Source of the DNA: Candidatus Eremiobacteraceae bacterium
GTDB taxonomy: Bacteria > Vulcanimicrobiota > Vulcanimicrobiia > Eremiobacterales > Eremiobacteraceae
DNA: 64,000 nt
Direction of reading: 5' to 3'
Assembly (NCBI GenBank): GCA_035314825.1
Contig: DATFYX010000072.1
Location: forward strand, 62,001 to 126,000
The translations under genes were made by a program, and so were the position numbers. Of this stretch, positions 34,094-37,074 are shown in pieces (position 1 is the first letter of the stretch; every line of letters begins with the position of its first letter). The notes under the pieces are model-generated. The model ran no database searches and had not been told where the DNA came from. It saw only the letters and a list, made by a program, of their open reading frames with translations.

Positions 34094-34206
34094 TTATCCA
34101 CAGTACATAGGCCGTCGAACACGTGTGCGTGATGAGCGTCATACTGTGTTAGCCGCGTCACAAATCCGAGGGGATGTGGGTCACATGTTCGATATACTTA
34201 TACACA
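34094..34206. promoter_or_regulatory. AT-rich leader region with a DnaA box and a TATACT element
   Basis: TTATCCACA, a perfect DnaA box, lies at 34094-34102 and TTATACACA (one mismatch) at 34198-34206. ATGTG-GGT-CACAT (34174-34186) is an inverted repeat just ahead of TATACT (34193-34198), a likely -10 of the HD-GYP-like gene. The region is clearly less GC-rich than its surroundings. Confidence 0.4.
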
Positions 34207-34231: not shown

Positions 34232-35602
34232 GTGCAAACTTCGATTTCTGGGGCGGCGGATATCCCGCGAAAGGTTCCGGTGAGCGTCATGGCTGTGGCA
34301 GGGCAGGCGCAATTCGATCGGGTTTCGGGTACAGGGCTCGTCCGAGAGCACGCCTCGTGGCGGACGGCAGCTAAGCACTTCTATAATGCTTCACTCTTCG
34401 TCGCCGCCGCGGCTCTCGTTGTTTTCGTTCCGCTGCACCTCGAGTACACGATTTCTGCGTATCTCGCGGTGGCAGTCGTTGGTGTGTTCCTCGTCCTAAA
34501 CGAACGGCCGCAAGACGGATTCCAAGGCGGGCACGTACCGCTTACAGCGATTCAGGCGGCGGCAGTGGCAGCAATCGGCGGCTGGGCTTTGCCGCTGGGC
34601 GTCATCACATGGTCCGTCGTGCACGCGCAACTGCTTCGGAAGGGTAGGCCGCTTCCGACGTTTGTCAGCGGTCTTGCCGGACAGCTTGGCATGACGACCT
34701 TTGTGACCTATGCCATGTTAGCAATATATGCCGGCACGCATGCAGCCACCGTGGCTCTTCCCATCGTTTCAGCGCTGGTAATGTTGCTGGGCATCATAGC
34801 GATGGGTATGGTCGGGCAAACCCTTAATAACGCGTTTGTCGCCGCCGGATTAGTGATCCTCGGCGAGCCCGTGTCCTTCGTGCGGTACTGGCGCGCCGGC
34901 TTCGTCGCTTCGCTGTGGGCGTATCTCCTCGTGGGGATGTACGCGTTCGCCGGCATCCTCGGAGCCATCGTGTTCTATTACGTGGTGGCGCACACGCGGA
35001 TGTTCGAGCGCATCATCCAGGCCGCGGCGGCTCGAGACGAGCGCGACTTCGTGACGAATCAATTCCACGAGATGATTCGGGACTTCATGGGGTTGCTTAG
35101 TCCCCAGGACGCCGAGTTTGCGGCTGACGTCCGATACCTATCGCTCCAGCTGGGCCGGAAGATCGGCATGCCCAAGACCGATCTCGAGAAGCTGGGTTGG
35201 GCCGCAGAATTCCATGAAATAGGGAAATGCAAGCTGTCGGCTGACGTTAGGGAGGGCAAAAATCTAACGCCCGCTCAGCAGGGCGAGGCCCTGCGTTATC
35301 CGATGCTCGGAGCAGATGTCTTACGGAAGGCTTCGAAGGTGATTCCGGAAGAGGTTGCCTACGCAGTTCAGCATCAGTGCGAGGCCTTTGATGGCAGTGG
35401 TTATCCGCACGCCATGAGGGGGACGAATATCCCCCTTATGTCTCGCATTATCGCGATTTCCCGCGACTATGCGCGTCTCCTGACCGGCCATGCCGGCACC
35501 GAGCCACTTCCAAAGCAAACAGCGCTAACCACGCTGCAAGCTCGCGCCGGCAGCCAATACGACCCCTCCCTCGTCGACCTCTTATACCGTGAGATCGCGT
35601 AA
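34232..35602 (+). CDS. Membrane HD-GYP-like protein with degenerate metal site
   Basis: In the 456-residue protein the first 250 residues hold six or seven TM helices (e.g. 55-70, 77-90, 105-130, 160-195, 205-215, 225-250). The last 180 resemble an HD-GYP phosphodiesterase: FHEIGKCKL (327-335), NLTPAQQGEALRYPMLGADVL, HQCEAFDGSGYP (381-392) and IPLMSRIIAISRDY. The GYP is kept, but HD has become HE, the RHP-type His is Tyr, and HHE has become HQC-E, so several metal ligands are missing. It probably senses rather than degrades c-di-GMP. GTG 34232 or ATG 34289 may be the start. Codon use is more AT-rich than that of its neighbours. Confidence 0.75.
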   Translation: MQTSISGAADIPRKVPVSVMAVAGQAQFDRVSGTGLVREHASWRTAAKHFYNASLFVAAAALVVFVPLHLEYTISAYLAVAVVGVFLVLNERPQDGFQGGHVPLTAIQAAAVAAIGGWALPLGVITWSVVHAQLLRKGRPLPTFVSGLAGQLGMTTFVTYAMLAIYAGTHAATVALPIVSALVMLLGIIAMGMVGQTLNNAFVAAGLVILGEPVSFVRYWRAGFVASLWAYLLVGMYAFAGILGAIVFYYVVAHTRMFERIIQAAAARDERDFVTNQFHEMIRDFMGLLSPQDAEFAADVRYLSLQLGRKIGMPKTDLEKLGWAAEFHEIGKCKLSADVREGKNLTPAQQGEALRYPMLGADVLRKASKVIPEEVAYAVQHQCEAFDGSGYPHAMRGTNIPLMSRIIAISRDYARLLTGHAGTEPLPKQTALTTLQARAGSQYDPSLVDLLYREIA

Positions 35603-35615
35603 GGGGCAGGTGGAA

Positions 35616-35777
35616 CTATCTATTGATCAGCTGGTCCTGGATATGCGCGCCGCTGTTGATCATCTGATCTTGGGCATTCATCCCACTGTTGATCATCTGA
35701 TCGAGCATGTGCGCAGCCCATTGCATGAGCATGCTGAGATGATACGAAAAGGCGTGGAACTCACTGCCGAAATGCAT
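35616..35777 (-). CDS. 53-residue protein with three 11-residue repeats
   Basis: It starts at ATG 35777 with GGAGG (35784-35788) 6 bases upstream. After an aromatic N-terminus (MHFGSEFHAFSYHLSML) come three 11-residue units: AHMLDQMINSG, MNAQDQMINSG and AHIQDQLINR. The period suggests an amphipathic helix or coiled coil that self-associates. There is no signal peptide. It lies antisense to the 3' flank of the HD-GYP-like gene. The opposite strand also has an open frame (GTG 35589), but without a ribosome binding site. No family is recognised. Confidence 0.6.
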   Translation of the reverse strand: MHFGSEFHAFSYHLSMLMQWAAHMLDQMINSGMNAQDQMINSGAHIQDQLINR

Positions 35778-36102
35778 GACTAGCCTCCAAGCGGTCTGTT
35801 AACTCGGAGAGCGAGACCACACGCCTCAGATCGCACCGCCACTGCCAGGCGGTGCGGTCGCTCTTTTATCGACTACCCAAGGCTAAGAATGTGGAATCAG
35901 CCCCCCAAGTGTCCTTGAACGATACCACTTCGAACCGCGCTCTGGATATGTTCTGCCAAACATTTTCCATAAGAGTGATCCGCGACTCGCGGTAGCCTTC
36001 GTTCGTTACAGCGCCCACTCGACGTGTGACGCTGGTCACACTCCGTTATAGGAGCCCGCACAGGCTCCTTCTTGGGGTCTCGGGACAGGAATAGGGTAGC
36101 TA
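35778..36102. other. Intergenic region, 325 bases, with two hairpins
   Basis: Besides the terminator at 35832-35868 it holds AGGAGCC-CGCAC-AGGCTCCT near 36050-36070, which could end transcription coming from either side. The rest should contain the promoter of the 53-residue gene (minus strand), but no clear -10/-35 pair is seen. I find no credible gene in it. Confidence 0.5.
35832..35868 (+). terminator. Terminator downstream of the HD-GYP-like gene
   Basis: Perfect 9-bp stem CGCACCGCC/GGCGGTGCG with loop ACTGCCA, followed by GTCGCTCTTTTA. The 230-base interval from the HD-GYP stop means its transcript would run antisense across the whole 53-residue gene. Confidence 0.7.
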
Positions 36103-37074
36103 CTACGAGGCTGCGGCCTTTTCCGTCTGGTGGAGTTTGGCTGCTCCGGTATCGTACGCTGGCGTCAACCAGTGGCGATAACCGGGCAGTTCGCCCATGA
36201 CCGCCTTGCGGTAGAGCTCGCGAAGGGCGGCGGTCTTGGTGCCGACCTTGCCGCGGCCGACCGGGCGGTGATCGACCTCGATGACCGGGGCTACCTCGAC
36301 CGCCGTGCCCACGAGGAACACCTCGTCGGCCACATACAGCTCGCTCCGATCGATGCTGCGCTCGAGCACCTCGATGTTCAGCTCGCGCTGGCAAAGATCG
36401 ATGATGGTGCGCCGCGTGATGCCTTCGAGAATCCCGTCGCTCACAGGCGGGGTGATGGCGATCCCATTCCGGACGATAAAGATGTTCTGCGCGCTGCCTT
36501 CCGCGACGTGGCCTTCGCTGTTGAGCATAATGGCCTCGTCGAAACCGTTGGAGACCGCTTCGGTCTTGGCCAACGCCGAGTTGACGTAGACTCCGGTCAA
36601 CTTGGCCCGCGCCGGCGCGACGTTGTCATCGATGCGCCGCCATGACGAAATGCAGGCCCGCAAGCCGGCTGACGAGTCGAAATAAGCCTTATGCGGCACG
36701 GCGGTGATGGTGAATTCATGGCTGACCTTGTGCAGCCTCACCCCGATCTCTTCCGCGCTCTTGTAGACGAGCGGCCGGACGTAGAGATCCTGGCGGAAGT
36801 TGTTTGCGCGCGCCAATTCGGCCGTGCGAGCGCACAAGCGCTCAGGCGATTCGGTCAGCTCCATCATGAGCAGCTTGGCCGAATCGGCCAGGCGTTCGTA
36901 GTGTTCGAGCAGCCGGAAGAAGTAGAGCTGGTTCGCTTTGGCGTTCCAATAACCGCGGATGCCCTCAAAGCAGCCGGTGCCGTAGTTCAGGCCGTGGGCG
37001 AGAATCCCGACCTTCGTCTCGGCGTACGGCACCAGCGTGCCGCCACGGTAGACGATGAGTTTGTCCAGATCCAT
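36103..37074 (-). CDS. ilvE: Branched-chain amino acid aminotransferase
   Basis: The 323-residue fold-type IV PLP enzyme has HGLNYGTGCFEGIRGYW, the PLP lysine region APARAKLTGVYVNSALAKTEA, EGHVAEGSAQNIFIVRNG and a final ADEVFLVGTAVEVAPV. It makes or degrades Leu, Ile and Val. ATG 37074 with GGAGAG nearby is chosen; longer frames add an unrelated leader. TATAGT on the minus strand at 37201-37206 may be its -10. The livKHMGF uptake operon at 55-60 kb handles the same amino acids. Confidence 0.92.
   Translation of the reverse strand: MDLDKLIVYRGGTLVPYAETKVGILAHGLNYGTGCFEGIRGYWNAKANQLYFFRLLEHYERLADSAKLLMMELTESPERLCARTAELARANNFRQDLYVRPLVYKSAEEIGVRLHKVSHEFTITAVPHKAYFDSSAGLRACISSWRRIDDNVAPARAKLTGVYVNSALAKTEAVSNGFDEAIMLNSEGHVAEGSAQNIFIVRNGIAITPPVSDGILEGITRRTIIDLCQRELNIEVLERSIDRSELYVADEVFLVGTAVEVAPVIEVDHRPVGRGKVGTKTAALRELYRKAVMGELPGYRHWLTPAYDTGAAKLHQTEKAAAS

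Follow-up and report, generated by a model that had tools for sequence, protein, structure and literature searches.

The window, a 64,000-nucleotide stretch of DNA from a Candidatus Eremiobacteraceae bacterium, contains a minus-strand ORF (positions 35616–35777) that starts with ATG and encodes a product of 53 residues, MHFGSEFHAFSYHLSMLMQWAAHMLDQMINSGMNAQDQMINSGAHIQDQLINR. It is preceded by a GGAGG ribosome binding site (35784–35788, minus strand) with a 6-nt spacer (CTAGTC), exactly as the initial annotation had described it and as direct reading bears out. Residues 26–53 comprise three C-terminal DQ[ML]IN units (LDQMINSGMNA, QDQMINSGAHI and QDQLINR), the motif starting at residues 26, 37 and 48, i.e. 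with a spacing of 11 residues. The exact 7-mer DQMINSG occurs twice, and a repeat of that length was obtained in none of 5000 residue shuffles; Tandem Repeats Finder detects no array at the DNA level, indicating that the DNA repeats score beneath its threshold. The ORF is flanked by (i) a convergent plus-strand gene (34232–35602) for a membrane protein with a degenerate HD_5/HD-GYP domain (Pfam PF13487, E = 3.1e-24), hereafter the HD gene, and (ii) a minus-strand ilvE-like branched-chain amino-acid aminotransferase gene (36103–37074; Pfam PF01063, E = 1.1e-51), its other neighbour conserved by synteny. A structured leader, a CRP-like palindrome and a −10 element lie upstream of the ORF.

Across the bacterial family, we examined the interval that separates the aminotransferase gene from the convergent HD_5 gene. 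All eleven genomes that carry the HD gene (G000, G001, G004, G005 and G007–G013, G000 and G001 being the pair from the window's genus) have there a minus-strand ORF of 35–55 residues, present in a single copy in each and with its position kept across the family. The position of its stop codon varies between genomes: at one extreme it falls 13 nt beyond the HD stop, at the other 96 nt into the HD ORF. The window derives from a Candidatus Eremiobacterota MAG; the closest relative of its HD gene is that of JAFAKE010000107.1 (isolate CP_BE_RX_3). In the second genome of the window's genus that has the locus, the syntenic ORF encodes 55 residues (MHFGSEIHAFSLHAGILVNQLVQWLHQLESLVNPQESLVNPQQLLHTAESLVNPH); its start and ribosome binding site are near-identical to those of the window, and its repeat is a different one, ESLVNP, with spacings of 7 and 13. 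Syntenic small proteins from elsewhere in the family include MHLHELGGVLYNVLHSLGGVLASIGHFMHTFDTGIFPGLHS (G013), MLVLLGGVLSVVHTLGGVLSAAAHFINVFSDSLVF (G009), MHLLIADIILKRMDIILKGAAHFGHVLWTMHDIILLPH (G008) and MHLHEFGGVLLNVINNMGGVLASIGHFMHTLDTGVFGVTPHDTGVFGANKP (G011). The DQMIN repeat is confined to the window's species, the relatives carrying ESLVN, GGVL, DIIL or DTGVFG repeats spaced by 7, 10, 11 or 13 residues, so that the 11-residue repeat singled out by the initial annotation holds for that species but not for the family. The common thread of the members is a short helix together with two or three copies of the motif [GDE]-x-[VIML]-[LIV]. Copies of this motif are more alike inside one protein than they are to those of other genera, and the repeats thus seem to be renewed in step within each protein. 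When assessed by shuffling, repeat significance is strong in G000, G001, G004, G008, G009, G011 and G013, moderate in G005 and G012, and no higher than chance in G007 and G010.

The minus-strand frame contains stops or frameshifts in none of the eleven genomes, whereas the plus-strand frames across it have stops in most of them; a plus-strand ORF of 64 residues over the same bases was rejected on this ground. For same-genus pairs, dN/dS of the small ORF is 0.19 (G005/G012), 0.07 (G004/G013), 0.23 (G004/G011) and 0.38 (G013/G011), with the proviso that in G004, G011 and G013 the ORF extends partly over the HD gene, which may add constraint there. Third codon positions take 8 of the 13 changes in G005/G012 and 4 of the 5 in G004/G013. 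In these other genera, dN/dS on the minus strand is low (0.07–0.38); the opposite-strand frame that shares wobble positions has a selection score similar to that of the small ORF, but plus-strand frames are interrupted by stops in most genomes. The refuting conditions put forward in the initial annotation, disruption of the minus-strand frame or conservation of the plus-strand frame only, thus did not come true. The pair from the window's genus gives 0.65, its sites being saturated and the two sequences too diverged to judge. Dinucleotide shuffling yields an SD-led ATG ORF of 35 or more residues that ends beside the HD stop in 0.4–0.9% of cases per locus, compared to 10 of the 11 real loci; at the eleventh (G007), the small ORF is present and its SD is weak. 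A profile built from nine members recovers these nine at E values of 1e-10 to 1e-19, by construction, and gave no convincing relative in the rest of the phylum, with one weak match in G136 (E = 0.018). Note that G000 and G001 are joined to the GGVL-type members through position, promoter and start, not through an HMM match.

Lack of the HD gene goes along with lack of the small ORF, a co-occurrence resting on one clear case: in G006, which has the aminotransferase gene and lacks the HD gene, a search of the 900 nt downstream of the aminotransferase gene revealed neither an SD-led small ORF nor a palindrome. G002 (72% complete) and G003 (370 contigs) show no match to either neighbour gene. In other families of the class, none of the 18 loci inspected beside the aminotransferase gene has a similar small ORF. 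The window protein itself matches nothing above the curated cut-offs of Pfam, NCBIfam, PHROGs and PADLOC (best hit PF11848, DUF3368, with E = 0.29 and 11.5 bits against a cut-off of 27.3), in agreement with the earlier statement that it resembles no known family. Altogether, we consider it very probable that 35616–35777 is a genuine small-protein gene; synteny in 11/11 genomes supports it and, at 53 residues, it is indeed too short for the usual length cut-offs, as had been anticipated.

An AlphaFold model of the window protein, computed from a two-sequence alignment, consists of a single helix spanning residues 3–51 (pLDDT 82). The initial annotation, which had derived amphipathic helices from the 11-residue periods, is supported in that one long helix is predicted, but the 11-residue unit is not the conserved feature; the helix may stack or bind membranes, as had been suggested there. 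The protein is acidic (net −3) and its maximal hydropathy (KD19) is 0.59, compared with 1.05–2.08 in the relatives, so that its own helix is probably too weakly hydrophobic to span a membrane. We infer that the window protein is amphipathic and that the family makes a short helix, hydrophobic to amphipathic in character, which is placed in the membrane or at its surface.

A sigma70-like −10 element lies on the minus strand 214–318 nt upstream of the small ORF in the eleven genomes; it reads TATAAC in the window (36045–36050), TATAAT or TATACT in most relatives and GATATC in G004 and G013. TTGCNN is found 18 nt upstream of it in G005, G007, G008, G009 and G012, and TTGTCG in G010. A few bases past the −10 element, over the expected transcription start, every genome has GTGAC-N4-GTCAC or a near form (GTGACGCTGGTCAC at 36026–36039 in the window; imperfect in G007). 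The looser palindrome GTGAN6TCACA has 10–26 matches per genome, both strands counted, versus 0–5 for the reversed control, an excess suggesting that these sites mark a real regulon of CRP-like type. The same palindrome is present upstream of the HD gene in G004, G005, G011, G012 and G013, and near forms in G000, G001 and G010; given the genome-wide counts, the pairing of sites beside the small gene and the HD gene in the first five genomes is unexpected by chance. The near-palindromes upstream of the HD gene read GTGATGAGCGTCAT in the window (about 34100–34200) and GTGACACGCGTCAT in L004, upstream of 5001.

The recognition motif of Escherichia coli CRP is RETVGR. The strongest CRP-family protein of G000, and its counterpart in G001, has the recognition helix TTRETVNRML (GTTRETVNRMLNRF), which by comparison with E. 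coli CRP fits the GTGAC-N4-GTCAC site. The locus and its genome thus combine two features expected of a CRP/FNR-regulated promoter, a TGTGA-N6-TCACA-like palindrome at the promoter and a CRP-family protein with an RE---R helix, the CRP-like sites being assigned on sequence alone. The location of the site over the transcription start suggests repression of the small gene. In G001, CRP-like palindromes also occur near pseudopilin-like genes (L125:2072-2159, L126:1998), and the putative regulon may extend to type IV pilus-like systems in that genome. A CRP-family regulator is encoded at L120:1086-1787, beside a prepilin-peptidase-like gene, and at L123:1750-2472, beside a PilM-like gene.

From the palindrome to the ATG, the small gene has a structured 5' leader of about 260 nt in the window (35778–36039, minus strand; folding z −4.4) and of 204–305 nt across the eleven genomes. 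Folding z ranges from −1.2 (G008, the weakest) to −5.2, with a mean of about −3.6, compared with a mean of −0.27 (sd 1.5) for 80 control segments from the same loci; the small ORFs, unlike the leaders, have a z near 0. Low values are obtained on both strands, so that z alone leaves the functional strand of the leader unsettled. Two hairpins stand out in the window: (i) a 12-bp hairpin at 35829–35859, which on the plus strand is followed by GCTCTTTTAT and is a candidate terminator of the HD transcript, and which on the minus strand reads as a leader hairpin with the apical loop UGGCAGU; (ii) a minus-strand hairpin at 35948–35963, with a 5-bp stem and the apical loop UGGCAG (TGGCAG at 35953–35958). 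UGGCAG-loop hairpins number two each in G000 and G001 and one each in G005, G008, G010 and G012; by eye, a hairpin of this kind with a shorter stem can be added for G009, and for G007 one with a UAGCAG loop. There are 8 U(G/A)GCAG hexaloop hairpins in the 11 leaders versus 8 in 421672 control strand-bases, a control that includes most of these leaders. Stem pairs covary within the selected set, in part as a result of the selection, the hairpins having been picked by loop and stem. A hairpin-only model stands out weakly from the genome-wide background, and the UGGCAG hairpin was rejected as a regulon marker, since its matches outside the small-gene locus are mostly at background level. A search of Rfam with the leader gave no family at gathering score, and the identification of the leader as 6S RNA was rejected, 6S RNA being located elsewhere in six of the seven genomes tested.

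The 35829–35859 hairpin lies past the 5' end of the small ORF, so that termination of the HD transcript at this hairpin would make it antisense to the entire small gene. This agrees with the initial annotation, which had placed the ORF antisense to the 3' flank of the HD gene with the HD transcript reading across it. The UGGCAG hairpin is followed by a plus-strand T-run, making it an HD terminator candidate, in G000, G001, G005 and G012 and in none of the others; the lower hairpin of G000 and G001 is better paired when read as a plus-strand terminator. A terminator-like plus-strand hairpin past the small gene is seen in these four genomes and some others, whereas none was found in G007, G009, G010 and G011.

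The HD protein combines hydrophobic N-terminal segments with an HD_5 domain, pointing to a multi-pass membrane protein. None of the eleven homologues retains the HD dyad, where HE is found instead (HQ in G010), and the second histidine of HHE and the late aspartate are replaced as well, in varying form (HQCE for HHE). With its metal-ligand positions altered in this way, the protein is unlikely to be an active HD-GYP phosphodiesterase; it is probably a conserved pseudoenzyme, with a putative role as a receptor. Note that the promoter and its operator, the structured leader, the presence of the operator at the HD gene as well and the degeneracy of the HD-GYP domain in 11/11 homologues were not part of the initial annotation.

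How these elements work together can be viewed in several ways. That there is no protein gene, the ORF being a chance feature of a leader RNA, of an antisense RNA or of DNA repeats, could be argued from the very short length of the ORF, its fast-changing C-terminal repeats and the weak sequence similarity between genera, but is highly improbable in view of a frame that is open in 11 genomes and begins and ends at matching positions in them, the low dN/dS in genera other than the window's, the contrast between an unstructured ORF region and a structured leader, and a profile that matches nine members (by construction) and nothing convincing elsewhere. A different proposal accepts the ORF and assigns regulation mainly to the 200–300 nt leader, which would pair with target mRNAs or bind a protein by means of its UGGCAG-loop hairpins, while the ORF adds a peptide. 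Its precedents are the dual-function RNAs AzuCR and VcdRP: vcdRP, Spot 42 and AzuCR are repressed by CRP, and these enterobacterial and Vibrio systems resemble the small gene in having a short transcript with its own promoter, a CRP-type site, a small protein and, in some, an RNA function (PMC8672173). The small gene differs from them in belonging to another phylum, in its long folded leader, in an operator placed over the expected start, in lying tail-to-tail with a membrane gene bearing the same type of operator, and in showing no sequence relation. The strong folding of the leaders relative to controls, the hexaloop enrichment (against a control that includes most leaders) and the covarying stem pairs of the selected set speak for such an RNA; however, the covariation is partly due to selection by loop and stem, the lower hairpin of G000 and G001 pairs better on the plus strand, and the hairpin-only model is weakly above the genome-wide background. 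We regard this proposal as unlikely.

An improbable alternative of similar standing is a type I toxin-like unit, in which a membrane-active peptide would be silenced by the start-site operator, by a folded leader hiding the SD and by antisense RNA from the 3' end of the HD transcript. TisB has such a layout, with a start-site operator, a structured leader and a small membrane-active peptide. The small membrane protein TimP is toxic, and an sRNA represses it (PMC7667032). Like both, the small gene has an operator near the start, a long folded leader, a small, predicted helical product that may be hydrophobic or amphipathic and a possible antisense RNA in the form of the HD transcript; in addition, several members could fold their SD into a short hairpin (GAAGGAGCC(C)UUC in G004, G009, G010 and G013; GGAGCUCC in G008). 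The likeness is nevertheless one of layout only: the small gene is without library match, single copy, syntenic family-wide and not mobile, and the window protein is acidic (net −3), weakly hydrophobic and amphipathic. Moreover, a short RNA gene dedicated to antisense control is not apparent, this role falling to the end of a protein-coding mRNA, and several members yielded no plus-strand terminator.

The explanation that we favour, at roughly even chances, is that of a separately transcribed, CRP-like-regulated gene for a small helix that works together with the degenerate membrane HD-GYP protein or modulates it; taken by itself, the function of the small protein as a partner or modulator of the HD protein is plausible at even chances or somewhat less. 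In this model, the CRP-family protein with the CRP-type recognition helix would repress the small gene, given the site over its start, and would probably activate the HD gene, where the site lies upstream, so that the two genes might be expressed under opposite or finely balanced conditions. The leader fold would probably hold back translation until a signal or a partner opens it. The short hydrophobic to amphipathic helix would then sit in or on the membrane and act with, or tune, the membrane-bound HD-GYP protein, which would serve as a sensor or receptor and not as an enzyme. In an excludon, coding transcripts overlap in antisense and a regulator may set them in opposite directions. The small gene and the HD gene are comparable in that two coding transcripts would overlap in antisense and the same type of regulator may set both oppositely; they differ in being convergent, not divergent, and their opposite regulation is deduced from site positions only. 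A more ambitious version seems doubtful to us: here the small helical proteins, lineage-specific and with rewritten repeats, would form a new family that acts on the adjacent, catalytically dead membrane HD-GYP receptor; one CRP-like regulator would set the convergent genes oppositely, and translation would be controlled by a structured leader belonging to a new class of RNA.

In conclusion, a gene invisible to length cut-offs and family libraries can be traced across a bacterial family through its position, promoter, operator and leader, although its protein sequence is nearly rewritten between genera. If the proposed link with the HD protein is true, the locus would provide a case of small-protein control of a c-di-GMP-type receptor, and of a convergent gene pair under one CRP-like regulator in an uncultured phylum.
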